Below, piece by piece: positions 47,787-64,000 of a stretch of DNA of 64,000 nucleotides. The notes beneath the pieces are model-generated. The model ran no database searches. It saw nothing but the letters and a program-made list of their open reading frames with translations, and was not told the DNA's origin. Numbering within the stretch: the first letter of the stretch is position 1; each line of letters starts with the position of its first letter. The translations under genes and the position numbers were made by a program. The stretch comes from Acidobacteriota bacterium (GTDB taxonomy: Bacteria > Acidobacteriota > Terriglobia > Terriglobales > Acidobacteriaceae), in assembly GCA_021790995.1 (NCBI GenBank), contig JAJYFA010000004.1:1-64000 (forward strand). The letters run 5' to 3'.

Positions 47787-48761
47787 ATGGCGAATCTTGA
47801 GAATTTCCGCCTGGTCGTTTTTCGGACGGTTGCAAAGCAGCGAAGCTTTCGCAAAGCCGCCGAAGAGCTTTACCTGACGCAACCTGCCGTGAGCTTGCAG
47901 ATCAAGGCGCTCGAGGAAGATCTCGGTGTTCAGCTTTTCGACCGATCCGGCGCGCACGCCAGTTTGACGGCGGCGGGCACGGTGATGCTGGAGCATGCAC
48001 GCCGCGTCCACCTATTGATGGTGCAGGCAGAGCACGAGATCGGTGCGTTGAGCGGAGATCATGCCGGCAGGCTCACGCTAGGCGCATCCACAACCATCGC
48101 GCAGTATGTTCTGCCGCGCCTGCTCGGCGAATTTTGCGCAGAAAACCCTCGCGTCTTTCCCACTCTGCTGAGCGGTAATACCGAGCATATTGTTCATGCC
48201 GTTCACGAAAAACGAATCGCACTTGGATTCATTGAGGGGCCTCCGCGAATTCGCGAAGTGCACACCGAGCCTTTTCTGCGCGATGAGATTCTGCTCATCG
48301 CACCCGCAGCGCACGAGTGGACAGAGCAGCAATCGGTCGCCTGTACAGACCTTACGACGGCACAATTGCTGATGCGGGAGCGCGGATCGGGCACGCGCAG
48401 AATTACTGAGATGGCGCTTGCGCGCCATGGAATCCAGCGCCGCTCGCTTCGTATTGCGATGGAGCTCGATTCGACAGAAGCCATCAAGTCCGCCGTTGAA
48501 GCAGGCCTTGGCGTTGGCTTTGTTTCGCGCTGGGCAATTGCCAAGGACCTCCGTTTGGGGCGCAGCTTCAAGATCGTCGAAGTCAAGGGGCTGCGCATCC
48601 ACCGCGATTTTCTTCTGGTTACCGCCAAGGGCCCGCAGCCCAATGGCCTGGCACAGGAATTCCGTAGATTCCTGGCCTCGCGCGCGGGAACGAAACGGAA
48701 CTCTTCGAAGTCGCAGATAGCCAGCGCAAAGCAGATATTGAAGGCCGATAAGCAAAGCTAA
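47787..48761 (+). CDS. LysR-family transcriptional regulator
   Basis: LENFRLVVFRTVAKQRSFRKAAEELYLTQPAVSLQIKALEEDLGVQLFDRSG. Confidence 0.94.
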   Translation: MANLENFRLVVFRTVAKQRSFRKAAEELYLTQPAVSLQIKALEEDLGVQLFDRSGAHASLTAAGTVMLEHARRVHLLMVQAEHEIGALSGDHAGRLTLGASTTIAQYVLPRLLGEFCAENPRVFPTLLSGNTEHIVHAVHEKRIALGFIEGPPRIREVHTEPFLRDEILLIAPAAHEWTEQQSVACTDLTTAQLLMRERGSGTRRITEMALARHGIQRRSLRIAMELDSTEAIKSAVEAGLGVGFVSRWAIAKDLRLGRSFKIVEVKGLRIHRDFLLVTAKGPQPNGLAQEFRRFLASRAGTKRNSSKSQIASAKQILKADKQS

Positions 48762-48794
48762 TGCCCAATCATTCGTTCTGCTTGGACGCGCGCC

Positions 48795-49739
48795 ATGTTC
48801 GAACGGCACACTGAGTGTGTGTCGAGAAACCTATTCTTCCTCGGTCTGATCTTCGCAGCCACAGGTCTTGTTTCCCCGCCAGTCGCATTGGCCGGTGGCT
48901 TGGTTTACGGATTTTCTTTCGCGCATCCGTATCACTCGGAGGCCAAGCGGCTCTCCAAATTCCTGTTGCAGGCCTCTGTCATCGGCCTGGGCTTCGGCAT
49001 GAATCTCCAAGAGGTTCTTCACGCTGGCCGCTCGGGATTTGCATACACAGCTGCCAGCATCAGCATCGCCCTTTCGCTCGGATGGGCCCTCGGAAGGCTT
49101 CTCAAAGTCAACCGCGGCACATCCTTCCTCATCTCGGCGGGTACAGCCATTTGCGGCGGCAGCGCCATTGCCGCCATCGCGCCGATTACCGAAGCCGGCG
49201 AGGATGAGATCGCCGTTTCGCTGGGCACGGTCTTTGTGCTCAACTCGGTCGCGCTGCTGACCTTTCCTCTCATTGGAAGCTTGTTGCACATGTCGCAAAC
49301 TCAGTTTGGGCTGTGGTCTGCACTCGCTATTCACGATACGAGTTCCGTGGTGGGTGCAACAGCCAAGTTCGGTGCGCTGGCTCTTGCCGTGGGCACAACG
49401 GTCAAGCTGGCGCGCGCGCTGTGGATTGTTCCGGTCTCCATGGGTACGGCCGTCGCCAGAAAAAGCAAAGCGCGGGTTCAGTGGCCCTGGTTCATTCTCC
49501 TGTTTTGCCTGGCGGCCGTTGGCAACACTTACATCCACACCTTTCAGCCGGCTTACCCGGTCCTCAAGCACCTCGGCGTGGTTGGCCTTACGGTCACGCT
49601 TTATCTGATCGGTACGGGGCTTTCCATGAAGACCATTCGCGAGGTTGGCGTACGGCCGCTTCTGCAAGGTGTTCTGTTGTGGATTGTTGTTGCCGTTGGA
49701 TCGCTCGAGCTCATCCGCGGCGGCTGGATTCATCTGTAA
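48795..49739 (+). CDS. UPF0324 (YeiH-family) putative sulfate exporter
   Basis: LQASVIGLGFGMNLQEVLHAG, FLISAGTAICGGSAIAAIAP, WSALAIHDTSSVVGATAKFG. Confidence 0.88.
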   Translation: MFERHTECVSRNLFFLGLIFAATGLVSPPVALAGGLVYGFSFAHPYHSEAKRLSKFLLQASVIGLGFGMNLQEVLHAGRSGFAYTAASISIALSLGWALGRLLKVNRGTSFLISAGTAICGGSAIAAIAPITEAGEDEIAVSLGTVFVLNSVALLTFPLIGSLLHMSQTQFGLWSALAIHDTSSVVGATAKFGALALAVGTTVKLARALWIVPVSMGTAVARKSKARVQWPWFILLFCLAAVGNTYIHTFQPAYPVLKHLGVVGLTVTLYLIGTGLSMKTIREVGVRPLLQGVLLWIVVAVGSLELIRGGWIHL

Positions 49740-49865: not shown

Positions 49866-52800
49866 TTAGAAGATGATCTTGCCCACAAACTGCCAGACGC
49901 GCTGCGCGCCAACTGTCGAAGGCGAGTTGACCGTGCCCGTGCTGCTGCTGGTGGATGTAATCTGCCCGAAGGTTCCCGAGGCGCTCACCGTCGATCCCGG
50001 ATTGGCGAGATTGGTGTGATTCCATGCGTTAAAGACTTCCGCCTGGAACTGGCCATGAATGCGATGGTCGCTCAGGATGTCCTTGAAGAGCGAGAGGTCA
50101 GTGTCCTGGTAGCCGGGTCCGCGCAGAGAGTTACGCGGCACGTTACCGAAGGACTGGACATTGTTGTTGGCTGACGGAAGTGGGTTCTTCGCAAATGCAG
50201 CTTGATTGAACCACTCCGTAATCTCGGACGCGCCCGCCGGCCGTGCAGGGCTCACGCCTGTGTACACCGCGTAGTCGTTGCCGATGCCGGAAAGTGAGTT
50301 GTCCACGCCGCTGTTGAAGGTCAGCGGCAAGCCAGTCTGTGACGTGATGATGGCATTCAACTGCCAGCCGTTGACGATTGCGTTTGCCGGACCGCTAACG
50401 TTGAATCTCGGCAGCGGGTAGTTGGCCGATGCCGTGAAGCGCAACGCCTGGTCGAAGTCAGCTACGCCGCGCTGGCTGTTCAGATTGAATGGGTTGGGCG
50501 GTCCCGCCTGGCCTTCAGTGCCCGACGAGCCGTTGTCAATGGTCTTCATCCACACGACGTTGGAGAGCAGGGTCAGCCCGTGAGCCGACCGGCGCGTGAC
50601 GTTGAACTCCAATGCGTTGGTCATCTCATATTGGTAGGAGTCAGCCAGTTCCACAGCGCCGAGCCCAGGGAAGAGTCTGCGGCTGTTTTCGTTACCCACC
50701 GTGTCTGGCGGATTGTCCTTCGGATTGTAGATGGCCGGGTTGAACTGCCGGGAGGCCATCACGTGCTCGGCGTGGTTGCCCACGTAGCCTGCACTCATGG
50801 CAAAACCATGCGTCAGATCCTGTTCGATCATGAGGTTGTAGGCTTGCGTATACTCCACCTTCGAACCTGGGTTCAGCACGCCGCCAGCAAGGGGTGTCAC
50901 AAACTGATAGGTCTTGAACTGCGAAGGCGTGACGTGTCCGCGCGGGAAGGGATTGCCGCCCGGGTAGCCGGTGTAGACGTTGTCCCACTTCGGCGGGTTG
51001 GGAATGTTGAGATAGAGGTTGATGGGCTGCATGGCGTCCGTTCGCTGATACAACAGTCCCTCAGGGAACCCATAAAAGATGCCGTAGGCGCCACGAACCA
51101 CCGTCTTGCCGTTGCCGAACAGGTTATAGGCGAATCCCACGCGGGGCGCAAAGTCTTTGAAGTTGTTTTTGAAGACAGGCGCCTGCACACCGGAGTCACC
51201 GTCGAACATCAATCCCTTTGGCGCGTTCGGGGCAACCGTCGACTGGAAGCTTGGATTTGCCAGATCGAAACCCACAAGCGTTCCGTTATTGTCGATAGGC
51301 GGCATCCATGGATCCCAGCGCAGGCCAAGGTTTACCGTAAGCCTCGGCGTCATCTTCCAGTCATCCTGGAGATAGAGCGACGGACGAAGTTCGCGCAGGT
51401 ACGCTTTGCGCCCGTTGTCCTGATAGAAGCTGGATTCGTAGCCGACATAGAAATCAGCGAACGCGTTACCACTCTTCGCGAATCCGGCCGGCAGCGCTGT
51501 GCCTGAAGGCGCTTGCGTACGCTGTCCGTTAAAGGTGTTGTCGCCCGGTGTAAAGGAGTAGTCGTCCATGTCGATACGCGAGCGTTCCATGTCTCCACCC
51601 ATGGTCAGCGTGTGCCTTTGTATCAGCTTCACGACCTGGGCGTGGATATCGAATGTCGTGGCATCCTGGGTAAGAGCGCCGCCGGAGAAGAGGTTGACGT
51701 AACCCACGATGTTGTTCCGCACACCAGGAAACGGAACCAGATTTTCGTTCGGACTGCCGTAGGGCACGCCTGTTTGTCCGAGTTGATAGTCTGTCTTCAA
51801 TCCTGGCGCTACGGGAATCTGCGTACGCGCGCCGCGGAAGAAGCCAAAATACACAACGCCCGTCAGTGAGGACGAGAAGACGTGCGCTTCGCTGAGCGTC
51901 AGCGCCTGGTTGCGGAACAGATTGGCCGCATAAAAGCCGAGGGGGGCTGTAAACGGCCGCTGGAAGTTATCCTCATTGTAGAAATAGCGGCCAAAGATAT
52001 GGTCGTTTTGACCGAGGGCATAGTCAAGCCTCGTCAGATACTGCGTATTATCGATATTGTTGTTGGTGTTGGTGCTCAGCGTGTTGTAAATGCCGGCGTT
52101 TGGTCCCGTCGTGATCGGGGTTGAAGCCGCCTCTCCAGCGACAAGATACTGCTTGTTCACGGCCAGGGACAGCGGGTCCATCGGCCCATCTCCAGGCTGA
52201 CCATCGCCGGGAATGATGTCGGTGATGGTTCCGGTGCAGTTGTAACCACCCGTGCCGTTTGGCGCTGCTGTCTGCCCATAACCGCAACCAGTCACCGGGT
52301 TGTAGATCGCGATGCCCTGTGCAGCCAGCGCCGAGAAGTCGCCTGTAAGTTCAGCTGCGGTAGGCATCTGAATGGTGATAGGCGTAGGCGCGGAGCGCTG
52401 CTGGAGATCCTCGGCCGAGAAGAAGAAGAACGCCTTCCTGCTCTTGAAGACCGGGCCGCCAACCGTGCCGCCAAACTGGTTGAGCTTGAAGGGCGGTTCC
52501 GTTGGGTGATGCCAGAAGTAGTTGCGCGCATTCAGCACTGTGTTGCGGAAGTACTCCCATGCCTCGCCGTGCAGTTGATCCGTTCCAGAGCGCGTGGAGA
52601 GCTGCACCAAAGCACCAGCGCCAGCGTGATCGGCGCTGTAGTTTGAAGCCTGGATCGTGAACTCCTGCAACGCATCCGGGTTTGGCATGGTCGGCACGGA
52701 ATCAAAGAAACGGTTCACGTAAACCGTGCCATCGAGCATATATGTGTTTTGTGTTGCTCTCAGGCCGTTCACCGATAGACCGGTATTGTCTTCCTGGCCG

Positions 52801-53324
52801 CTCTCGGTGCCGGTTGTGGTCAGAACCGTGCCGGCGGTCAGTGTGGTGAGTTGCAGCGGGTTGCGGCCGTTGAGCGGCAGGTCGCGCATCTGCTGCTGGG
52901 TCACCGATTGCTCCACGGTCGAAGTGCTGGTCTCGATCTGCTGGCTCTCCGATGTGACGGTCACCTGCTGCGTCTGTGTGCCCACTGCCAGTCCGATGGG
53001 CAGATCCATCACCTGGGCGGTGATCAACGTCATACCGGTGAGATCTTTTGTCGCGAACCCTTTTGCGGAGACCTTCAGCGTGTAGCCTCCGATGGGAAGA
53101 TTCGGGAACACAAAGATGCCGCTGTCGTTGGTCATGGTGGTGCGCTTGATGCCCGTGCTGGTCGCGGTCGCCGTCACTGAGGCATTGGCTATGGCGGCAC
53201 CGCTCGGGTCAGTTACCGTGCCGCGGATGCTGCCAGTGGATTGTGCAAATGCGCTGGACGCAATGCCCAGAGCGAGGAACACTGCGAAGCTGGCGATGAG
53301 TAGTTTGCGAATTAAGTTATTCAT
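49866..53324 (-). CDS. Oar-like TonB-dependent outer-membrane receptor with N-terminal CarboxypepD_reg domain
   Basis: GSIRGTVTDPSGAAIANASVTATATSTG, RDLPLNGRNPLQLTTL, C-terminal QAEVFNAWNHTNLANPG...QRVWQFVGKIIF. Confidence 0.92.
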   Translation of the reverse strand: MNNLIRKLLIASFAVFLALGIASSAFAQSTGSIRGTVTDPSGAAIANASVTATATSTGIKRTTMTNDSGIFVFPNLPIGGYTLKVSAKGFATKDLTGMTLITAQVMDLPIGLAVGTQTQQVTVTSESQQIETSTSTVEQSVTQQQMRDLPLNGRNPLQLTTLTAGTVLTTTGTESGQEDNTGLSVNGLRATQNTYMLDGTVYVNRFFDSVPTMPNPDALQEFTIQASNYSADHAGAGALVQLSTRSGTDQLHGEAWEYFRNTVLNARNYFWHHPTEPPFKLNQFGGTVGGPVFKSRKAFFFFSAEDLQQRSAPTPITIQMPTAAELTGDFSALAAQGIAIYNPVTGCGYGQTAAPNGTGGYNCTGTITDIIPGDGQPGDGPMDPLSLAVNKQYLVAGEAASTPITTGPNAGIYNTLSTNTNNNIDNTQYLTRLDYALGQNDHIFGRYFYNEDNFQRPFTAPLGFYAANLFRNQALTLSEAHVFSSSLTGVVYFGFFRGARTQIPVAPGLKTDYQLGQTGVPYGSPNENLVPFPGVRNNIVGYVNLFSGGALTQDATTFDIHAQVVKLIQRHTLTMGGDMERSRIDMDDYSFTPGDNTFNGQRTQAPSGTALPAGFAKSGNAFADFYVGYESSFYQDNGRKAYLRELRPSLYLQDDWKMTPRLTVNLGLRWDPWMPPIDNNGTLVGFDLANPSFQSTVAPNAPKGLMFDGDSGVQAPVFKNNFKDFAPRVGFAYNLFGNGKTVVRGAYGIFYGFPEGLLYQRTDAMQPINLYLNIPNPPKWDNVYTGYPGGNPFPRGHVTPSQFKTYQFVTPLAGGVLNPGSKVEYTQAYNLMIEQDLTHGFAMSAGYVGNHAEHVMASRQFNPAIYNPKDNPPDTVGNENSRRLFPGLGAVELADSYQYEMTNALEFNVTRRSAHGLTLLSNVVWMKTIDNGSSGTEGQAGPPNPFNLNSQRGVADFDQALRFTASANYPLPRFNVSGPANAIVNGWQLNAIITSQTGLPLTFNSGVDNSLSGIGNDYAVYTGVSPARPAGASEITEWFNQAAFAKNPLPSANNNVQSFGNVPRNSLRGPGYQDTDLSLFKDILSDHRIHGQFQAEVFNAWNHTNLANPGSTVSASGTFGQITSTSSSTGTVNSPSTVGAQRVWQFVGKIIF

Positions 53325-53417: not shown

Positions 53418-54611
53418 CTAAACGAGTTCTGTTTTCTTACAAAGTTCGTGCGACCAATACGACTGGAGCGCCATCATCACGGGCACACTGGCTGCCAGTC
53501 CGGCCGTGACTGGTGCGTTCACCTTGCTGCCGTTCAAAATTGCATCCACAAAGTTTTCGGTGTGCGCGCGCTCCAGGCTCTGCGTCGAGTCAAACCGGGT
53601 TGGCGCGCCGTGGTTGGGAGTGAACGTGTACCCCTCCCGGCTCAGGTCGAGAGTTCCTTCAGTTCCTTCGAAGTAAACCGAAGGATGTGGGTTACGAATG
53701 GAGAGAACCGACGATTCGAAGTTGAGGTTCCAGTTTTTGTAGCGGACGACGGCGCTCACGGTGTCCGGGTTGGTGAGATCGCCAGTGAGCTGGAAGTCGC
53801 CTCCCAGCGCAGCCGCGGTCTCCGGCTTGTCATCGTTCATCATCCACTGCGCCACGTCGGCCCAGTGCGTCAGGATGTCGGCCAGCAGTCCGTTGCCGTA
53901 GTCGTGATAGGATCGCCACGAGCTGTAGCGAGACATCTCGAAGGGCACCTTCGGCGCCGGTCCCAGAAACAGATCCCAGCGCAGTTCGGCCGGCTTCGGT
54001 ACATTCGGAATGACGCGCCGCTGCCAGGGGAAGTTGCTCCACACCGCGCGGGCAAAAATCACCTTGCCCAACTTTCCGCTGTCGAAGATCTCCTCCTTCA
54101 CCCGCTGATAGTGTGCGCCGCTGCGTTGCTGCATGCCGCACTGTAGCACCACGTTGCTGGCTTCCGCGGCCTTGATCAGCTCTTCCCGCTCGCTCCAGCG
54201 ATGCAGCGTTGGTTTCTCCAGATACGTGTTCTTGTGCGCTCCCAGCGTATCTTTGGCGATCTGAACGTGCAGGTGATCCGGAGTGGCAATCATCACCGCA
54301 TCGATGTCCTTGCGGTCCAGCATCTTCTGGTACTCGACAGAAACTTCTGCGCCGGCTACATGGTCCTTGAACCGCCTCTGAAATTCTGCTATCTGCTTGT
54401 CGTAGATGTCGGCCAGGGCCCGGATTTCGACCCTGGGATCCTGCACAAACCCGCCGCCGCAAACAACAGTTGCGCGGCGTCCTGTGCCGATGACGCCCAG
54501 GCCGACGCGGTCATTCGCTCCGGCAATTGCGGCGTACGCTCGTGCGTCCATGGCGCGTGTGGCAACCGCAGCGGCAGCGGCTCCAGTAAAAACAAATTCA
54601 CGTCGGTTCAT
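53418..54611 (-). CDS. Gfo/Idh/MocA-family oxidoreductase with Tat-like signal
   Basis: MNRREFVFTGAAAAAVATRA; GVIGTGRRATVVCGG; EKPTLHRWSEREELI; ADILTHWADVAQWMM. Confidence 0.9.
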   Translation of the reverse strand: MNRREFVFTGAAAAAVATRAMDARAYAAIAGANDRVGLGVIGTGRRATVVCGGGFVQDPRVEIRALADIYDKQIAEFQRRFKDHVAGAEVSVEYQKMLDRKDIDAVMIATPDHLHVQIAKDTLGAHKNTYLEKPTLHRWSEREELIKAAEASNVVLQCGMQQRSGAHYQRVKEEIFDSGKLGKVIFARAVWSNFPWQRRVIPNVPKPAELRWDLFLGPAPKVPFEMSRYSSWRSYHDYGNGLLADILTHWADVAQWMMNDDKPETAAALGGDFQLTGDLTNPDTVSAVVRYKNWNLNFESSVLSIRNPHPSVYFEGTEGTLDLSREGYTFTPNHGAPTRFDSTQSLERAHTENFVDAILNGSKVNAPVTAGLAASVPVMMALQSYWSHELCKKTELV

Positions 54612-55528
54612 TGCAGAAATGCCTCCCTCATGGCTTTGAAAGCTGGAGCAATCACCTTCGCACCGCCCTGCGAATGGTCGGCGCGTTCTTCTTCGTTCTC
54701 CACCCATCCCTTCCAGCCAAGCTGCTCGATGGTGGCGGCAACCTCGTGCAGCGGAAAATCGCCCGTACCGAGTTCGCAATACTGATCGTTCTTGAAGTCG
54801 CGCAGATGGAATCCAATGATGCGCTGAGAATGCGCGCGAATGAACGCGGGAACGTTGGCTCCGCCGTGGAATGCATGACCTGCGTCGAGAACAAAATGAA
54901 TCAGCTTGGGATCGGTCTCGGTGTAGAGAGCGTTAATCTCACCGATCTTCGACCGGAACTCCCACCAGTGATTGTGATAAGCAGCCGTAAGCCCGACAGA
55001 TTTGGCATAGCGTCCGGCGGTATTCAACGCTTCGATCTTGGCTTTCAGTTGACCGGTGTTTTCCGATGGGGCGCCGCTCAGGATCAGGTGCTTCGCTCCT
55101 AGCGCCACACCGCCCCGCGCTACGGGCTCGTACACTGTAGGCGCCGCAATCCGCGTCTTCTGGTCGTAAAGGTTGTCCGGGAAAAAGATATGAATGCCAA
55201 AGAAGGTCAGCCCGGTGCGCTCAATGCTCCGGCGCGCCATCTCGGGCGCGGCGAACTGCGGGCTCAGATTCCGAAAACTCGACTCGAAGCCTTGATAGCC
55301 AATCTGTTTGATCTGATCGAGGGCTGCCTCAAACGTCTCAAAACGCCTTGGGTTGATCGGGAAGGCATTCAACTGCACGCCGAACTTGATTCCAGGCGGA
55401 ACGTGGCCGCCCTCGGCGAATGACCGCGCTGACCCTAGCGAAGAGATCGTCCCTGCAGCCGCGAGAATACCCAATGCCTGAAGTACCTCCCTCCGCGTCG
55501 TTTGCTTCGCTACCTTATGAAATGTCAT
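54608..55528 (-). CDS. exported sugar phosphate isomerase/epimerase (AP-endonuclease-2 family TIM barrel)
   Basis: GYQGFESSFRNLS, AAYHNHWWEFR, HFVLDAGHAFHGG, 4-bp overlap with the Gfo/Idh gene. Confidence 0.85.
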   Translation of the reverse strand: MTFHKVAKQTTRREVLQALGILAAAGTISSLGSARSFAEGGHVPPGIKFGVQLNAFPINPRRFETFEAALDQIKQIGYQGFESSFRNLSPQFAAPEMARRSIERTGLTFFGIHIFFPDNLYDQKTRIAAPTVYEPVARGGVALGAKHLILSGAPSENTGQLKAKIEALNTAGRYAKSVGLTAAYHNHWWEFRSKIGEINALYTETDPKLIHFVLDAGHAFHGGANVPAFIRAHSQRIIGFHLRDFKNDQYCELGTGDFPLHEVAATIEQLGWKGWVENEEERADHSQGGAKVIAPAFKAMREAFLQ

Positions 55529-56082
55529 GATTCACATCCTTCGTTGTTCAATAGAAATGCCCACGACTATGCGCTCACCCAGGTCAGCGCAAATGGTTCA
55601 GATGGAATGGAAATCGGCGAATCCTGTGCAAACGGAAAAACTCGCCAAGCCTTGTTGCTGGGTGAGTTCCCAGAATTCAAAACTTACTTCAGCGATTGAC
55701 CAGAAAGACACGCTTGCATTGCGCTCAAACAGCAACGACATGACAGCACGGCGGGAGTGGGCTCGGCGCTCATTGCTTTGGGTGCGGGGGAAACCTACCC
55801 GATCGCCGACGAACACACACGGTCTGCATTCGGGTAAGGGTACTCTAGAGTCTTCGTTTGACCCCGTCAAGCGCCGCCGGTTTTTCTGCTCACATTGCTT
55901 CATGGCAATCGCGTATGGTCTGGCAAAACTCGCGCAATAGAAATCAGAATCGAAAACCGACCTGTCATCGAGCAGACAGATTGGCGACCTATTTCCAATG
56001 ACAACAAGCTTCGTCGTCCGATCTCGGGCAAGAAAAACTACGGTCTCTAATTCGGGCGAAGTATAGGCAGAGAGAATAACCT

Positions 56083-56113
56083 TTGTCAATCAATTTCAAT
56101 AGATTTTTATAAT
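56083..56113 (+). promoter_or_regulatory. putative promoter upstream of the aldolase operon
   Basis: TTGTCA (56083-56088), 19-bp spacer, TATAAT (56108-56113) in an AT-rich patch. Confidence 0.45.
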
Positions 56114-56435
56114 TACCTTTGCCATCAATGCGATACAAGCGACACCTTAACGCCGGCTGCCTCAAAAAAGCGGCCCCCTTCGATTTTCCCCGCGCCTTCC
56201 TGACTGTGCCCCGCGATTGAGAATCGCAGTGCAATAAGAACTCTGCCCTGAGTCGAAATCATTAATTATCGTTTATCATCGATTGACACCACCGAAGCCC
56301 GTCCGATATAGTTCTTTGCAATTCGCAGAATCACGAGCACATTCTCTGCTACCTTGTGATTTTGCCCTGCGCCGCTCCTCTGCGCGTTCATTGCGCGTCG
56401 ATGGCGTAGGTCGCTGTCGAAAACAGGAGAACTCA

Positions 56436-57431
56436 ATGCCGATGAAGCTGACGCCCGGAAAGATTGCCGGTTTGCAAGCCGTCGCCGATAGCCGCGGAGT
56501 TATCGCAGCCCTGGCTATGGACCAGCGAGGATTGCTCAGAGACATGCTCGCAAGAGAGCTCGGCGTCAGCGAACCGCCGCCGGAGATGATCTCGGAGTTC
56601 AAAACTCTGGTTGCGCAGACTCTGACCAGGGAAGCCTCGTCGATACTCCTCGACATCCAGTACGGCCTTGAAGCCACACAGCACATCAACGGCAAGGGTC
56701 TGCTGCTTGCCTACGAGCACGCCGGATACAGCCCTGACAAGCCGGAACGGCTGCCGTCGCTCTACGAGGGATGGTCGGCCCTGCGCATCAAGGAAGCCGG
56801 CGCCAACGCCGTCAAGATTCTTGTTTACTACAATCCGTTTGAAAAAGAGTGGGTCAACGACCGCAAGAAGGCGTGGATTGAACGCATTGGAGCCGAATGC
56901 AGGGCCGTCGATATTCCATTCTTCCTCGAATTCCTGCCCTATGACGTACACGGCCAGGGCGAGATCGAATATGCGCGCAGGAAGCCCGAGATCATTCTGA
57001 AGTCCATGGAAGAATTCGCCAGGGATCGCTACGGCGCCGATGTATTCAAGATTGAAGTCCCCATGCAGATGGCGCACGTCGAAGGGACGCGCGCTTTCAA
57101 GGGGCACAAGCTGCACACGCGCGCCGAAGCGATGGAACTGATCCGCGCAGAAGCGGCGCTCACCGACAAGCCGATTATTTACCTCTCGGCTGGAGTCAGC
57201 ACCCCGATCTTTCTTGAAACCCTGGAACTCGCTGTCTTGAGCGGCACGCATTTTCACGGCGTGCTCGCAGGACGAGCCACCTGGCAGGATGGCGTTCCCG
57301 TCTTTGTCAAAGGCGGTGCATCCGCGCTAGAACAATGGCTGAACACTAAGGGACTGCAAAACGTCAGAGACATCAATCAAATCCTCAAGTCCGCGCATCC
57401 TTGGCATGAGGCCCGCGGAATGCAAGTGTAA
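56436..57431 (+). CDS. class I aldolase of the LacD/YihT (tagatose-1,6-bisphosphate / sulfofructose-phosphate aldolase) family
   Basis: ALAMDQRGLLRDML, AVKILVYYNP, YGADVFKIEVPMQ (Schiff-base Lys context), IIYLSAGVSTPIF. Confidence 0.85.
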   Translation: MPMKLTPGKIAGLQAVADSRGVIAALAMDQRGLLRDMLARELGVSEPPPEMISEFKTLVAQTLTREASSILLDIQYGLEATQHINGKGLLLAYEHAGYSPDKPERLPSLYEGWSALRIKEAGANAVKILVYYNPFEKEWVNDRKKAWIERIGAECRAVDIPFFLEFLPYDVHGQGEIEYARRKPEIILKSMEEFARDRYGADVFKIEVPMQMAHVEGTRAFKGHKLHTRAEAMELIRAEAALTDKPIIYLSAGVSTPIFLETLELAVLSGTHFHGVLAGRATWQDGVPVFVKGGASALEQWLNTKGLQNVRDINQILKSAHPWHEARGMQV

Positions 57432-57519
57432 GGCCGCTTCGCATCCTACTCTTGCCAGACAGAACTGAAACCTTGATGCCGGCGTCCCCCCACACGGCGG
57501 CCTCGCTCAGGGAGGAAGT

Positions 57520-58791
57520 TTGCCGAACGTTGAAGAGATACGCGGGACTGAAAGCGGGCTGGCCATCGAGCACCGCAACAGCGGGCGCGCATGGCTGATT
57601 CTCTGCTTCCTGTTCTTTCTCACTGTGATTATGTTCATCGGCCGCCAAGCATTGTCTGTCATGGCCCCGGTGCTGCGAACGACCTTTCACCTTTCCAACG
57701 CGGCCTACGGAAGGATTGTTTCCGCTCTCGGCTTCGGTATGATGACGGGCGAGTTCCCCATGGGCTACCTCATGGATCGGCTGGGCGCGCGACTGGGGCT
57801 TACAGCCGCCATCTGCTGGTGGTCGACCGCATCAGCCTCGTTCGCTCTTGCAGGCTCCGGCCTTTCGCTGGGGTTGTCGCAATTCTGGAAAGGCACCGGC
57901 GAATGCGCCGCCTACTCGGGCGGCGTCAAAACCGTGACGCGGCTCTTTGAGAAGAAAGATCGCACGCTGGCCATCGGTATCTTCAATGGCGGCAGCGTCA
58001 TCGGCGCCACGCTCGCGGTTCCCGTGATTGTTTATCTGCTCGAACATTACGGATTTCGCACCGCATTCCTGGTGCCCGCGGTAGCCGGGTTCCTGTGGAT
58101 TCCTGCGTGGTGGTTCATGTACGGCAAGGAAGCCAAGAGGTCCGCTCAATCGGCCCAGCCAGCAATTTCCGCCCGGGAGCTGCTCGGCAACTCATCCGCC
58201 TGGGCTGTCATGCTTTGCCGCTTCTTTATTGGGCCAGTGATGCAGTTTTACTGGTACTGGACGCCCAGCTATCTCTTTAGCGCCCGCCACATGACCATGG
58301 CTCAGATTGGATTCCTCGCCTGGATTCCTTTCCTGATGGGCGATGTGGGCGGCATTGCGGGGGGATGGGCAGCCGGCGTACTTATACGCCACGGATTTTC
58401 CGTTCTCAACACGCGACGCATCCTGATGTACGGCAGCGCGATCATCTGCCTTCTGAGCTTTGCCATACCTTATCTGCATGCCACGGCCGCCGTCATGGCG
58501 TTGCTCTGCCTGACCATTGCTGCTGACAACTTCCTTTCCGCGCACATGTTCGCCGCCGTCACGGATCTCTTCCCCGAGCACCAGGTAGGCCGCGCCACGG
58601 GGCTGACGGGCATTGCAGGGGGACTGTCCGGGATGCTGTTTCCACTGCTCACCGGCATTCTCGTCGATAAGATCTCCTACACACCGGTCTTTGTGCTGGT
58701 TGGGCTGATGCCGCTGGTCGGCACCGTCGCACTTTTCACCGCCGGCCGCAAATACCGCCTTCTCGACAAGCCTCAGATTGCCGCATCATAA
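57520..58791 (+). CDS. MFS transporter (anion:cation symporter / hexuronate-like)
   Basis: 12-TM-type sequence; FHLSNAAYGRIVSALGFGMMTGEFPMGYLMDRLGAR; GTGECAAYSGGVKTVTRLF; TTG start after GGAGG. Confidence 0.88.
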   Translation: MPNVEEIRGTESGLAIEHRNSGRAWLILCFLFFLTVIMFIGRQALSVMAPVLRTTFHLSNAAYGRIVSALGFGMMTGEFPMGYLMDRLGARLGLTAAICWWSTASASFALAGSGLSLGLSQFWKGTGECAAYSGGVKTVTRLFEKKDRTLAIGIFNGGSVIGATLAVPVIVYLLEHYGFRTAFLVPAVAGFLWIPAWWFMYGKEAKRSAQSAQPAISARELLGNSSAWAVMLCRFFIGPVMQFYWYWTPSYLFSARHMTMAQIGFLAWIPFLMGDVGGIAGGWAAGVLIRHGFSVLNTRRILMYGSAIICLLSFAIPYLHATAAVMALLCLTIAADNFLSAHMFAAVTDLFPEHQVGRATGLTGIAGGLSGMLFPLLTGILVDKISYTPVFVLVGLMPLVGTVALFTAGRKYRLLDKPQIAAS

Positions 58792-58812: not shown

Positions 58813-60306
58813 ATGCTTACACTCACACGCCGCGATGCTCTGGCGTTGCTGCTGGCTGCTCCTGCAGCAGTTCGTTCCCTACCCGCCCAATCCGCCGATT
58901 CGATTGCCCTCTTTGACGGCACTTCGTTGCGCGGCTGGCGCGCTCGCGGAGATGCAGCGGCCTTCAGGACCAATGGCGGGCAGCTATGCGCCCAAGGCAG
59001 CAACTCTCGCCTCTTCTATGCTGGTCCTTCCGGTGATGCGGACTTCAAGAACTTTGAGTTGAACGCAGAAATTTCCCTGCAGCCCGGCGCCGAATCCGCG
59101 CTCTGTTTCCATACCGCCGACCGGTCTTCCGCCGCACCTGCTCCCGGATTCGAGGTGCTGCTGGCCAACGATGCGCGCGGCCCCAACGGATTTATCCAGC
59201 GCAGAAAGACCGGCTCTCTCCAGGGCGTGCGCCACGTCTGGAAGCAGTTCATTGCCAACAACGAGTGGTTCACGCTTAACATTCTCGTCCGTCAGAAGCA
59301 GGTGCAGATCCGCCTCAACGGCATGCTGGTGGTCGACTACATCGAACCGGCCGATGCGTTCTCCGCCAACCCGGATTTCGAGTGCCGTATCGGCCACGGA
59401 ACCATTGCCATCGAAGCGCTCAGCCCGCAAAGCGTCGCACTCTTTCGCAATCTCCGTGTTCATCGGCTCCCCGACTCAATCCCGCAACTCTCAGACGAGA
59501 ACCCGCAGGTCGACGAAGTTTATCGCGATATCATCCGCCTTGGTTCGGCCAACATCCCCGTCGTCGACTATCACGCGCACCTCAAGGGCGGCCTGACACT
59601 CGAACAGGCTCTCAATAACTCGCGCCGCGTCGGTATTGGCTACGGAATCGCCATTAACTGCGGGCTCAGCTTCCCTGTGCACAGCGACGCCAGCATTCTG
59701 GCCTATCTCCAAAGCATGAAGGGGCAGCCCTGCTACGTTGCGATGCAGGCCGAAGGACGCGAATGGCAGACTCTTGTCTCGCCGGAGGCCGTGGCGCGCT
59801 TCGACTACGTCTTCACCGACGCGATGACCTTCACCGACGACCACGGCAAGCGCATGAGGATCTGGATTCCGGAGGAGATCGGCGTCATCACCGACAGTCA
59901 GGCATTTATGGAGATGTACGTGAAACGCATCGAGAGCGTGATGCGCGAACCGATCGACATCTATGCCAACGCAACGTATCTGCCCGACCAGATCGTCGCG
60001 CATTACGACGAGCTTTGGACGCCGCAGCGGATGCGGCGCGTGATCGACGCCACTCTCCACCACAATGTCGCGATTGAAATCAACAACCGCCGCAGGATTC
60101 CCAGCCGTACGTTTATCCAGATGGCGAAAGCGGCCGGTTGCACATTTTCCTTCGGCACCAACAATGCAGAAGCTGAGCTCGGCCGCCTTGAATACCCGAT
60201 ACAGATGACCAAAGAGTGCGGTCTGGTCTGGGAGGAAATCTTCGTCCCCAAACCGGACGGCCAGAAGCCGATCCAGATCAGGAAGAAACACGCCTCGCTG
60301 GCGTAG
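58813..60306 (+). CDS. exported DUF1080 (3-keto-disaccharide hydrolase-like) + PHP-like metal-dependent domain fusion
   Basis: N-term SIALFDGTSLRGWRARGD...NEWFTLNILVRQKQVQIRLNGMLVVDYIEP (DUF1080); C-term VVDYHAHLKGGLT...FGTNNAEAELG. Confidence 0.75.
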   Translation: MLTLTRRDALALLLAAPAAVRSLPAQSADSIALFDGTSLRGWRARGDAAAFRTNGGQLCAQGSNSRLFYAGPSGDADFKNFELNAEISLQPGAESALCFHTADRSSAAPAPGFEVLLANDARGPNGFIQRRKTGSLQGVRHVWKQFIANNEWFTLNILVRQKQVQIRLNGMLVVDYIEPADAFSANPDFECRIGHGTIAIEALSPQSVALFRNLRVHRLPDSIPQLSDENPQVDEVYRDIIRLGSANIPVVDYHAHLKGGLTLEQALNNSRRVGIGYGIAINCGLSFPVHSDASILAYLQSMKGQPCYVAMQAEGREWQTLVSPEAVARFDYVFTDAMTFTDDHGKRMRIWIPEEIGVITDSQAFMEMYVKRIESVMREPIDIYANATYLPDQIVAHYDELWTPQRMRRVIDATLHHNVAIEINNRRRIPSRTFIQMAKAAGCTFSFGTNNAEAELGRLEYPIQMTKECGLVWEEIFVPKPDGQKPIQIRKKHASLA

Positions 60307-61261
60307 TCCGTCTCACCGCGTTCACCGCTGGTCTGCCATCAAGCACGCGTCCTACGTCCTCGCACACGGCCATGGTCACGCGCGTCTGCGCTTCGCGCGT
60401 AAAGGCCGCGATGTGCGGTGTAAGGATCACGTTCGGCATAGCCTCAAGTTCGCCGGTCTGCGGAGGCTCTTTACCGCGCACATCGAGCGCCGCGCCGGCC
60501 AGCTTGCCGGACTTCAGCGCCTCCACCAGATCCGCCTCTACAACCACCTTGCCGCGCGACGTATTGATGAAGAACGCGCCCTGCTTCATCCTTGCGAACC
60601 GTTCGTGATTCAGCAGGCCCACCGTTTGCGGTGTTGCCGGCAGGTGGCACGAGAGCACGTCCGCCTGCGCCAGCAGTTCGTCCAGTTCCACCAGCTCGGC
60701 CTGCAACTCGCTCAGCAGAATGTTGTCCCGGCTCAGAAAAGGATCATAGGCCAGAACCTTCATGCCGAAGGCCTTCGCGCGGCAGGCCGTCAGAAATCCG
60801 GTCTTTCCCGCGCCCACGATGCCCAGCGTCTTGCCGTAGAGTTCCGTCCCGACGTAGCGCTGCCTGTTCCAGTTGCCCTTCTTCGTGTCCGCGTCGGCGA
60901 CCGCGATGAATCGCGCCAGCGACAGCATCATGCCCATGACAATCTCGGCCACGCTGATCGCGTTCTGGTCGGGCGTAAACGAGACTACAATGCCGGCCTT
61001 TTCGGCGTGCTTGTAGTCGACGTTGTCGAGGCCGACGCCGGCTCTGCCGATCACATGCAGATTCTGCGCGGTATCGATGAGCGATGCCGTCACAGGCGTC
61101 TGATTGCGCACAATCAGCGCCCGGCAGCTCTTCACCTTCTCGGCAAGCTTCTCCGGATCCTTCCACAAATCTGGCTCAAAAGAGACGCGAAAGCGCTCAC
61201 TGAGCGCATCGACAGCAGCGCCCCGTATATTTTCGGAGATCAAAATGTCCACGTTGCTCAT
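60278..61261 (-). CDS. D-3-phosphoglycerate-dehydrogenase-family 2-hydroxyacid dehydrogenase; candidate (S)-sulfolactate dehydrogenase
   Basis: CRALIVRNQTPVTASLIDTAQNLHVIGRAGVGLDNVD, KTLGIVGAGKTG, NTSRGKVVVEADL, DVRGKEPP; function from context. Confidence 0.85.
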   Translation of the reverse strand: MSNVDILISENIRGAAVDALSERFRVSFEPDLWKDPEKLAEKVKSCRALIVRNQTPVTASLIDTAQNLHVIGRAGVGLDNVDYKHAEKAGIVVSFTPDQNAISVAEIVMGMMLSLARFIAVADADTKKGNWNRQRYVGTELYGKTLGIVGAGKTGFLTACRAKAFGMKVLAYDPFLSRDNILLSELQAELVELDELLAQADVLSCHLPATPQTVGLLNHERFARMKQGAFFINTSRGKVVVEADLVEALKSGKLAGAALDVRGKEPPQTGELEAMPNVILTPHIAAFTREAQTRVTMAVCEDVGRVLDGRPAVNAVRRTTPARRVSS

Positions 61262-62319
61262 GGCTGGCCAACCACCTCATGGTTGAATGCTACGTTCAGG
61301 CGGGAGCACCATTGCTCGATCTCCGCCACGGTCTCGGGTGAAACAGGAATGCCCTGTGCGTTGTTGAGAGCGGCCTTGCGCGCGGATCGCTCGCCGGGGA
61401 CTAGAATCTCGTCCACGCCGGGACGCTTCTTTGAAGCCTTGATGCGATCGATGGTCGCGTCGATGCGGCCCAGATATTCGCTGTAATCGAGAAACGCCTT
61501 TACGTCGAAGAGACAGAAGAAGTGGCCCACATCCTGCTTGCGATCGAGGTTCTTGTACATCGAGCCGATATCTGGGCCAATCGCCGAGCCTGAAAGCACG
61601 CCGCTGAACAGTTCCACCATCAGCGCCAGCGCGTAGCCTTTGTGGCCAGCCATGGTCAACACCGTGCCGAGCAGCGCCTTTGCTGCATCGGTCGTCGGGT
61701 TTCCTTCAGGATCGAGCGCCCAGCCCAGCGGAATCGGCTGGCCTTTCTTTTGCGCCGCGATGATGTTGCCGCGCGCCACGCCCGATGTTGCCAGATCGAT
61801 CTTGACGGGAAATCCCTTGCCCGTAGGGAACGAAGCCGCGATGGGATTGGTGCCGAAGAACGGTTCGTATCCGCCTCCGGGCGACATGGCCGGTTCGCAA
61901 TTCGTCATGGCCAGCAGGACCATTTCGTGGCTCGCGGCATAATTGCAGTACCAGGAGAGCGCGCCGAAGTGTTGCGAGTTGCGGATGGTGGCCACGGCCA
62001 CGCCATTCTGACGAGCCATCGGGATAAGAAGATCGAGAGCCTTGCGTGCCTGCACCTGGCCCAGGCCGTTGCCGGCGTCGAGCACCAGCACACTGCCTGA
62101 CTGCCGGTCGATCTGGAGTGCCGCTTTGGGATCGATCAGCCCCAGCTCGATACGCTTGAGATAAATGTTCAACCGCGAAACGCCATGGGTCGAGACGCCG
62201 TTTAGATCGGCATCGACCAGCACCTCGGCAAAAAGCGCCGCGTCCTCAGCCGGCACGCCCATTGCGGCAGCCAGTTGCGACACAACGTTAACGAGCACCT
62301 CTTTGGGATAAGAATTCAT
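61258..62319 (-). CDS. Ldh_2/malate-lactate dehydrogenase family oxidoreductase; candidate (R)-sulfolactate dehydrogenase (ComC-like)
   Basis: DADLNGVSTHGVSRLNIYLKRIELG, VATIRNSQHFGALSWYCNYA, FFGTNPIAASFPTG, GHKGYALALMVELFSGVLSG. Confidence 0.85.
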   Translation of the reverse strand: MNSYPKEVLVNVVSQLAAAMGVPAEDAALFAEVLVDADLNGVSTHGVSRLNIYLKRIELGLIDPKAALQIDRQSGSVLVLDAGNGLGQVQARKALDLLIPMARQNGVAVATIRNSQHFGALSWYCNYAASHEMVLLAMTNCEPAMSPGGGYEPFFGTNPIAASFPTGKGFPVKIDLATSGVARGNIIAAQKKGQPIPLGWALDPEGNPTTDAAKALLGTVLTMAGHKGYALALMVELFSGVLSGSAIGPDIGSMYKNLDRKQDVGHFFCLFDVKAFLDYSEYLGRIDATIDRIKASKKRPGVDEILVPGERSARKAALNNAQGIPVSPETVAEIEQWCSRLNVAFNHEVVGQP

Positions 62320-62393
62320 AAAGGCCTCAACACAACATCGATGGGCGCTCCGGGCCTGCGAACAGAACCCGGAGCGGAAGAAACGCACTGGAG

Positions 62394-63557
62394 TTACGCG
62401 CTGCGATAGAGCTTGGTCATCACAAACTCGCGATGGCCCAGCGCCTCTGCCGCGGTGAGACGGCCGTTCGCCGTGCGCACGATGGTTTCGATCAGCAATT
62501 CGCCGGCCTGGTCGATCGTCATTTCTCCCTGCAGAATCGGCGACACATCCACGTCGACATGCTCGGACATCCCTTTCACGGTTTTAGGATTCCCTGAGAG
62601 CTTGATGACGGGCTCGATTGGATTGCCGATGATGTTGCCCTGGCCGGTGGGGAACAGATGTACCACCGCGCCCGAGGCAGCCCACAATGTAACTGCTTCT
62701 GCCGCGGCGCTCGACGTGTCCATGAACCAGAGGCCCTTGTCGGCAGGAGCTTCGGCAGGCTTCAGACAGCCGACAAACTTCGTCTTCTTGCCGATCTTTT
62801 CCACGTTGCCGAGAGCCTTCTCCTCGATGGTGGTCAAACCGCCGGCGATGTTGCCTTTGGTTGGTTGCGACTCGGAGAGATCGTCGGTCTTCTCGCCAAA
62901 GACCAGCTTCTGGTAGTCGTCGAACATGGCCTGGAACTGCTGGCGCACCGTATCGTTAATGGCTTTGGCGGCTACGATGTGCTCGGCGCCGGTCAACTCC
63001 GTGGTTTCGCCGAAGGAAGCCACACCGCCGTTCGCGCAATGCTTGTCAAACACATTACCGACCGCCGGGCAGCTCGCCAGTCCAGTGGTGGTGTCGCTCT
63101 CACCGCACTTCGCGCTGATGTACAGCTCACTGAACTTGCACTCGGTGCGCTGCAACTCAGTGGCCCACTGCACAAACTCCTTGGCTTTTCTTGAGGCCTG
63201 TGCAATGCAGGCGATGTCGCCCTGGCCCTCGATCGAGAAGCCCGCCACCGGCTTTCCGGTCTTTGCGATTCCGTCCACGATCTTCTGCGTCCAGCCCGGC
63301 TCGATGCCGATAACAATGACCGCAGCCACGTTGGGATTGGAGCCGGTCCCGATCATGGTGCGGAAGAAAAGCTCCAGATCCTCGCCGAACTGCAGGCGGC
63401 CATAGGCGTGCGGCAGAGCCAGTGTTCCCTTGATGTTGTTGGCCACGGCTTCGCACGCGGCATTCGAAATGTCGTCCACGGGCAGAATAACCACGTGATT
63501 GCGGATGCCGACGCGCCCGTTTTCACGCCGATATGCGTAAATTGTCAGATCCTTCAT
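62394..63557 (-). CDS. UxaA-family large subunit; candidate (2R)-sulfolactate sulfo-lyase beta subunit (SuyB-like)
   Basis: [93 protein letters not shown]. Confidence 0.78.
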
Positions 63558-63838
63558 TATGCCCACCTCTTCGTCTTCAGATTGTGCACGTGCACGTGCT
63601 GGCCGGCCTTGATTGGTTGCACCACTTTGCCGATGTCGCAGCCGTACTTGATCACCGTATCGCCCACGGCGAAATCCTTGAGCGCCAGTTTGTGCCCCAG
63701 CGGAATATCCTGCACTGCCTTGACCGCCAGCGGCCTGTTGGTTGAGAGATCACGGCCGGTACATTCCGTTCCGGCCGCAATATCCACGACGGCCACGCCT
63801 ACCGTGTCCGCTGAATCGTGAACAAGAAAGTGAATCAT
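63557..63838 (-). CDS. UxaA-family SAF-domain small subunit; candidate sulfolactate sulfo-lyase alpha subunit (SuyA-like)
   Basis: 93 aa, [23 protein letters not shown]...[22 protein letters not shown]...[19 protein letters not shown] coupling to the large subunit. Confidence 0.78.
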
Positions 63839-63874: not shown

Positions 63875-64000
63875 TCACATTCCGCCAAAGGAGACATGCT
63901 TCGTCTCCAGGAAGGCATCCAGACCTTCGATGCCCAGCTCGCGTCCCCATCCGCTCTGCTTCACGCCGCCGAAGGGGCAATTACTCGTGGTCGGCGCACC
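63875..64000 (-). CDS. aldehyde dehydrogenase, C-terminal fragment (truncated by window end)
   Basis: Reverse-strand translation [41 protein letters not shown] matches ALDH C-termini. Confidence 0.85.

Follow-up and report, generated by a model that had tools for sequence, protein, structure and literature searches.

A LacD-type aldolase within a putative pathway for sulfoquinovose degradation in Acidobacteriota

The stretch of DNA analysed here (the window) comprises bases 1–64,000 of a 65,629-base contig (C213) from a 4.15 Mb genome of a soil acidobacterium (G000), and it carries a class I aldolase of the LacD type facing the genes of sulfolactate breakdown. Together with their operon partners outside the window, these genes probably encode an extended variant of the sulfoglycolytic Embden–Meyerhof–Parnas (sulfo-EMP) pathway, which would convert sulfoquinovose (SQ) into dihydroxyacetone phosphate (DHAP), pyruvate, and sulfite, using the LacD-type enzyme as the 6-deoxy-6-sulfofructose-1-phosphate (SFP) aldolase. 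SQ, the sugar of plant sulfolipid, ranks among the organosulfur compounds of greatest abundance; its degraders have been described in Proteobacteria, Actinobacteria, Firmicutes, and a few other groups. Acidobacteriota are a dominant phylum of acidic soils and peat.

In the proposed scheme, SQ would be imported by a TonB receptor and then by a transporter of the major facilitator superfamily (MFS), and an isomerase of the SqvD/SftI type would turn it into 6-deoxy-6-sulfofructose. A PfkA-family kinase would phosphorylate this product at C1, and the aldolase would split the resulting SFP into DHAP and sulfolactaldehyde (SLA). The latter would be oxidised to (S)-sulfolactate by an aldehyde dehydrogenase (ALDH), inverted to (R)-sulfolactate through sulfopyruvate by SlcC and ComC, and finally cleaved to pyruvate and sulfite by SuyAB, while GntR (in relatives), LysR, and YeiH may serve control and sulfite export. 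We infer the substrates of all these steps, the phosphoryl donor (ATP or pyrophosphate, PPi), the import, and the regulation.

The aldolase and the genes linked to it

The genes, their families, the operon structure, the conserved linkage, and the co-occurrence are observed directly. The aldolase gene (56436–57431, plus strand; ATG to stop, 331 aa), identified by profile match and alignment, forms one unit with genes for an MFS transporter (57520–58791, plus strand) and for a protein with a 3-keto-disaccharide hydrolase (DUF1080) domain (58813–60306, plus strand); the first two lie where the first-pass annotation of this DNA had placed them. On the minus strand they are faced by genes for an SlcC-like (S)-sulfolactate dehydrogenase of the 2-hydroxyacid dehydrogenase type (60278–61261), a ComC-like (R)-sulfolactate dehydrogenase (61258–62322), the SuyB-like large (62394–63560) and SuyA-like small (63557–63838) subunits of (R)-sulfolactate sulfo-lyase, and the 3' end of an SlaB/GabD-like ALDH (63875–64000; full gene 63875–65314 of the contig).

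The first-pass annotation had noted correctly that the 64 kb show neither a kinase nor an isomerase, and the contig continues only to 65,629: past 64,000 it holds the remainder of the ALDH gene and then the last residues of the isomerase, ending just inside this gene, where the C-terminus is read. A transaldolase, a PfkA-family kinase, and the full isomerase are located at the end of another contig of the same genome (C97), the last 540 bp of which are 98% identical to the beginning of C213 in reverse complement. Since a close SuyB and a full copy of the SqvD/SftI-type isomerase each occur once in the genome, the simplest reading is a single operon split by the assembly. The kinase and the sulfosugar isomerase anticipated beyond the window are thus found in the same operon as ALDH and SuyAB, but they are not of the YihV/YihS kinds: the expected PfkB-like kinase is replaced by one of the PfkA family (PF00365), and the isomerase is of the SqvD/SftI type (FucI/AraI-like) rather than YihS.

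The linkage is conserved in relatives, which include Terracidiphilus, Granulicella, and other metagenome-assembled genomes of Acidobacteriaceae; the contigs of the compared genomes come mostly from metagenome assemblies. The complete set stands on one contig in five of these genomes (G041, G034, G039, G063, and G324), and G063 and G324 have a co-directional order of aldolase, MFS, kinase, isomerase, (GntR in G324), ALDH, SuyA, SuyB, ComC, and SlcC. The MFS gene adjoins that of the aldolase in most linked relatives. Among the 199 genomes searched, the aldolase clade was found in 15 and the isomerase in 16, with an overlap of 15 (Fisher test, 1e-21, uncorrected for kinship); all 15 genomes with the aldolase clade hold the isomerase, the kinase, and a close SuyB, and one of the other 184 (70% complete) has the isomerase at comparable identity. 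Four genomes of the same genus (G016, G053, G062, and G078) possess a close SuyB and neither the isomerase nor this aldolase clade; at the end of a contig in G062, part of a more distantly related aldolase stands next to SlcC.

Phylogeny and active-site residues point in the same direction. Of the 22 sulfo-linked aldolases, 21 form one clade (SH-aLRT, the Shimodaira–Hasegawa-like approximate likelihood ratio test, 99), the exception being a second copy in G057. In an active-site loop, the position after the conserved Asp (I74 in our enzyme) is occupied by Ile, Val, or Leu in all 21 members of this clade; YihT has Gln there, whereas the two LacD structures and all 24 other aldolases have Pro. 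Five lines of evidence, namely linkage, co-occurrence, the genomes having SuyB only, the separate clade, and the loop residue, thus assign the aldolase to the sulfosugar set. The proposal of the first-pass annotation that a sulfosugar route joins the aldolase to ALDH and SuyAB is borne out to this extent, the aldolase clade co-occurring and co-localising with the set in relatives.

A second, diverged copy of the aldolase (52–53% identity) accompanies the main one at three loci: L073 (G057, contig C121), L079 (G034, C18), and L085 (G040, C24). It adjoins SlcC in G057 and LysR/YeiH in G034.

Regarding its family, the aldolase matches the Pfam DeoC/LacD profile PF01791 (E 5e-34, 118 bits, cut-off 23.8) and the NCBIfam model PRK12858 "tagatose 1,6-diphosphate aldolase" (389 bits, cut-off 184). 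The positions conserved in class I DeoC/LacD enzymes are present (K205, D29-Q30-R31, K127, E165, a serine, and G279-R280-A281-x-W283), K205 aligns with K193 of YihT, and the catalytic lysine, the DQR, K, E, and GRA-x-W positions are common to YihT. The earlier description of the enzyme as a LacD/YihT-family class I aldolase therefore stands for the family, the catalytic lysine, and the shared positions; however, the protein is nearer to LacD (E 8e-85 versus PDB entry 3iv3) than to YihT (E about 1e-8). We rejected the filing of the aldolase as YihT-type because its closest relatives by sequence are LacD structures.

The only strong family match of the isomerase is NF048012, sulfoquinovose isomerase SftI (E 2e-42, positions 9–439 of 443). 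The kinase belongs to PF00365 (for the G039 orthologue E 3e-51; PRK14072, 382 bits, cut-off 273); the copy in our genome is 62% identical to this orthologue, stands in the operon position, and has the motifs GGNG and PKTVDND, which are ambiguous for ATP versus PPi. The same pairing of a FucI-like SqvD with SqiK of PF00365 is used in the sulfo-EMP2 pathway (PMC9594981).

A scan of the genome collection for the isomerase cluster revealed 53 loci. One of them, labelled Silvanigrella (L245), combines the isomerase with both transketolase halves, an RpiB-like isomerase, a transporter, and a YihQ-like GH31 protein, which is the layout of the sulfoglycolytic transketolase pathway. In four loci from Planctomycetota/Phycisphaerales (L248, L249, L251, and L252), the isomerase occurs with SuyA, SuyB, ComC, SlcC, a TalC-like transaldolase, and ALDH, so that TalC stands in for the kinase and the LacD aldolase in an apparent extended sulfoglycolytic transaldolase (sulfo-TAL) pathway; L248 also holds a class II aldolase. 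The distribution of the isomerase is narrow: it was detected in five of 396 genomes drawn across the phylum, all five of the same family, and a search of plasmids gave only distant matches resembling fucose isomerases.

For the lower part of the pathway, the second-best PDB match of ALDH is 8c54, which we take to be RlGabD. ALDH contains WNFP at 152, GIRK at 159, and FRNTGQSC at 278, corresponding to the WNF tripeptide and the two Arg of the RlGabD motifs. These residues were proposed as sulfonate ligands in the Rhizobium SLA dehydrogenase (PMC10599462), and they would also fit succinate semialdehyde dehydrogenases. The split UxaA-type small and large subunits are accompanied by ComC and SlcC, as is characteristic of SuyAB; the orthologue from the peat acidobacterium SbA5 is annotated suyAB, and SlcC has an SbA5 orthologue named slcC (PMC6018796). 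SuyB is 90% identical to the SbA5 protein and 79% identical to SuyB of the planctomycete locus L248, and its sole PDB match is a galactarate dehydratase (E 1.5e-33).

Arguments against the proposed pathway and alternative readings

Several observations weigh against the proposed pathway. The aldolase is a clear LacD homologue, and no solved LacD is known to bind a sulfosugar. Its score against the LacD equivalog TIGR01232 is 302 bits, below the curated cut-off of 432. The isomerase reaches 146 bits against NF048012, the curated cut-off of which is 700; two paralogues of the FucI-like type encoded in this genome match the model too (86 and 102 bits), so the name of the isomerase rests on context as well. 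ALDH and ComC score below the nearest equivalog cut-offs (the best NCBIfam match of ComC is L-sulfolactate dehydrogenase), and SuyB has no SuyB model of its own among its NCBIfam hits. The join of C97 and C213 rests on the 98% overlap and synteny, and neither of the two GH31 proteins of the genome has the Q288/R301/W304 set of a YihQ-type sulfoquinovosidase.

Two candidate assignments were rejected in this connection: the NF048012 match alone as proof of an SQ isomerase, because the paralogues match the model too, and the GH31 proteins as YihQ-type, because they are devoid of the YihQ Q/R/W residues.

Another possible substrate is sulfofucose (6-deoxy-6-sulfo-D-galactose), which the isomerase would convert to sulfotagatose, the aldolase then cleaving the 4-epimer sulfotagatose-1-phosphate within the same operon and with the same SuyAB end; we consider this unlikely. 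The LacD (tagatose) family of the aldolase would suit such 4-epimeric intermediates, and a sulfotagatose-1-phosphate route had been considered for Paracoccus, which did not use it and showed neither isomerase activity nor sulfotagatose (PMC12421959). On C97 an alpha-galactosidase is located near the kinase and the isomerase, whereas in L245 the isomerase family adjoins a YihQ-like sulfoquinovosidase. The PDB relatives of the isomerase are L-arabinose isomerases, enzymes which also accept D-galactose. Sulfofucose is rare while SQ is abundant, and LacD aldolases tolerate either C4 configuration, so the LacD ancestry is not strongly in favour of sulfofucose.

A sulfo-TAL logic is likewise improbable. 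Here a transaldolase would move C1–C3 of sulfofructose to glyceraldehyde 3-phosphate (GAP), giving fructose 6-phosphate and SLA, while the kinase and the LacD aldolase (as a fructose-bisphosphate aldolase) would turn fructose 6-phosphate via fructose 1,6-bisphosphate into DHAP and GAP. In G000, G034, G041, G043, and G069, the gene immediately before that of the kinase encodes a transaldolase of the TalAB type, the kinase resembles PPi-dependent phosphofructokinases, and the planctomycete relatives use TalC. However, the operon is without a transaldolase in most acidobacterial clusters (e.g., G039, G040, G045, G023, G022, G050, G015, G063, and G324), where the kinase and the aldolase stay; a transaldolase that adjoins the kinase in five genomes only is an optional component, and this speaks against a common route of the transaldolase type. 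Moreover, a second transaldolase and a class II fructose-bisphosphate aldolase are encoded elsewhere in the same genome, making a dedicated fructose-bisphosphate aldolase unnecessary.

It is highly implausible that the aldolase and MFS function in ordinary sugar metabolism (of tagatose or fructose bisphosphate, or of a sugar acid) and that their position beside the sulfolactate operon is incidental. The family name and the best structural relatives are indeed those of tagatose 1,6-bisphosphate aldolases, and generic paralogues with an identity of about 50% are common across the class (some match in 90 of the 199 genomes). However, the sulfo-linked aldolases group in a separate clade in which loop residues are changed, belong to one co-directional series of genes together with the isomerase and the kinase in G063 and G324, and are absent from the SuyB-only genomes. 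The flanking tagatose/galactose pathway named in the first-pass annotation as a counter-indication was not seen, no LacA, LacB, or LacC being recognised in the clusters.

Neighbouring genes and the release of sulfoquinovose

The SQ pathway suggested above may be preceded by the release of SQ from its glycosides. Divergent from the aldolase, the minus strand carries genes for a xylose-isomerase-like TIM-barrel protein with a twin-arginine translocation (TAT)-like leader (54608–55528), a Gfo/Idh/MocA oxidoreductase resembling glycoside 3-dehydrogenases, also with a TAT-like leader (53418–54614), and a TonB-dependent receptor-like outer-membrane protein (49866–53324), assigned by sequence appearance and conservation. 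All three are conserved neighbours: the TonB receptor and the oxidoreductase, often with the TIM-barrel protein, are found near the aldolase or the cluster in more than 10 acidobacterial loci examined. GH188 sulfoquinovosidases act through a transient oxidation at C3 (PMC10755693), which makes the oxidoreductase/TIM-barrel pair, by analogy, a candidate for releasing SQ from a glycoside. The oxidoreductase matches the GH188 enzyme SqgA (8qc2) at E 8e-5 and has better matches in 8tdf and 8tdh; GH188 was not recognised at the cluster, with no genome-wide search for it made. DUF4867 (SqvB) was not found in the genome by a search without a positive control.

Other loci of the isomerase cluster differ in their neighbours. 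A TIM-barrel protein (PF01261) with a TAT-like leader is encoded divergently from the kinase operon in at least five clusters, among them L187 on C97 of our genome (11659–12525, minus strand), L108, L126, and L078. A DUF5054 protein, a candidate glycosidase for SQ release, occurs near the isomerase cluster in L270 (15209–17293) and L271 (16545–18710), both with a TAT-like leader, and in L223, L194/L250, L230, and L218; it was not found in the loci of the window. A secreted alpha-galactosidase (Melibiase_2) is present near the cluster in L187 (10367–11560), L107, L110, L081, L218, and L230, and enzymes of the beta-galactosidase type (GH42, GH2) in L081 and L082. Since galactolipids accompany sulfolipid in thylakoids, the region may serve the use of plant membrane lipids.

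The best NCBIfam match of the MFS transporter, the candidate sulfosugar importer, is the D-galactonate transporter TIGR00893, below its cut-off. The DUF1080-domain protein, which has a weak C-terminal similarity to PHP, is seen only in our own, the G041, and the G034 clusters; in other genomes an M24-peptidase-like protein occupies this position (L069, 10076–11203).

Farther from the aldolase, the plus strand encodes a LysR regulator (47787–48761), with YeiE-like proteins among its matches below the cut-offs, paired with a putative sulfate/sulfite exporter of the YeiH family (48795–49739). This pair (47787–49739) also adjoins aldolase genes in G041, G069, and G034 (the paralogue locus on C18) and lies near the cluster in G494 (L272). 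Its placement suggests that sulfite sensing and export are tied to the pathway.

The aldolase and the divergent unit of TIM-barrel, oxidoreductase, and TonB genes are separated by a region with two promoter-like sites in back-to-back orientation: TTGACA-N18-TATAGT (56283–56312, plus strand) upstream of the former and TTGACA-N18-TATACT (56060–56089, minus strand) upstream of the latter. With at most one mismatch, TTGACA-N18-TATA[G/C]T has exactly two matches in the 64 kb against 0.06 expected for this pattern, which was picked after seeing the sites.

As to the fate of sulfite, the search for DsrAB in our own genome revealed nothing beyond a single protein of 620 aa that carries two NIR_SIR domains, and we therefore make no claim of sulfite respiration for the organism of the window. 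A broader and rather improbable scenario is that Acidobacteriaceae of peat and soil run a self-contained sulfolipid pathway, in which a third evolutionary type of SFP aldolase (LacD-type, besides YihT and SqiA) would be combined with SQ release by the oxidoreductase/TIM-barrel pair instead of YihQ, and in SbA5, for which sulfite-reduction genes are reported, with the direct use of sulfite as an electron acceptor, so that plant sulfolipid would be converted to sulfide within a single organism.

Comparison with known systems

The same locus is carried by SbA5 (OKRB01000086.1, L211), with the same content as contig C158 of G034. For this strain, Hausmann et al. (2018; PMC6018796) reported suyAB, comC, and slcC as a source of sulfite and the absence of the importer SlcHFG; the parts of that paper available to us recognise only these genes and do not mention the upstream isomerase, kinase, ALDH, and aldolase. 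The cluster would provide the sulfolactate lyase genes of SbA5 with an internal source of sulfolactate, the known importer being missing according to the same parts of the paper (PMC6018796). The origin of sulfite for respiration in low-sulfate peat becomes a directly testable question.

The nearest published cluster is the actinobacterial "Y160" of IMCC26103, proposed as a possible new sulfoglycolytic pathway by Backlund and Higgins (2024; PMC11465081). According to the available portion of that paper, it shares with the cluster described here an SLA dehydrogenase, a phosphoglycerate-dehydrogenase-like (SlcC-like) protein, both sulfo-lyase subunits, an SFP aldolase, a sulfofructose kinase, and an enzyme of the fucose isomerase type; the aldolase and kinase are compared by function name only, their families not being stated in that portion. 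Y160 belongs to Actinobacteria and has ABC transporters and a GH188 sulfoquinovosidase (PMC11465081), whereas the cluster in Acidobacteriota has MFS/TonB and ComC, with no YihQ recognised.

The sulfo-EMP2 pathway of Firmicutes (SqvD, SqiK, and SqiA) is similar in the SqvD-type isomerase, the PfkA-family kinase, the same intermediates, and an SlaB-like ALDH (PMC9594981, PMC12890257). In contrast to it, the LacD-type class I aldolase would here replace the class II SqiA, the pathway is extended by SuyAB, and no YihQ or SqvB was found; no class II SqiA-type aldolase is present at the cluster, the only enzyme of class II that the genome search revealed being encoded on C87, away from the cluster. 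The sulfo-EMP pathway of E. coli (YihS, YihV, and YihT) likewise relies on a class I aldolase from the Pfam family DeoC/LacD, and we propose the same reaction for our enzyme, but our isomerase and kinase are non-orthologous, the aldolase is far closer to LacD, and SLA would be oxidised, not reduced.

Extended sulfo-TAL pathways with SuyAB, known from Thermotogae and Chloroflexi (PMC9594981) and seen in the planctomycete loci above, have in common with our cluster the SqvD-type isomerase, ALDH, SuyAB, ComC, and SlcC; the C–C cleavage is performed there by a TalC-like transaldolase and here, as we suggest, by the kinase and the LacD aldolase. The tandem sulfofucolytic–sulfolactate sulfolyase pathway of Paracoccus wurundjeri likewise leads, in one organism, from a sulfosugar via SLA and SlcC/ComC/SuyAB to sulfite and pyruvate, but its upper part is of the Entner–Doudoroff type, and ALDH of the GabD/SlaB type was not found there (PMC12421959).

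A literature search combining sulfoquinovose with Acidobacteria gave no description of sulfoglycolysis in this phylum. Our reading predicts a switch of substrate inside the LacD aldolase family marked by the loop change. The chemistry of every step is already known from the systems described; as far as the literature searched shows, the new elements are the LacD-type aldolase as the putative cleaving enzyme, its combination with the PfkA-type kinase and the SqvD-type isomerase, and the phylum in which they are found.

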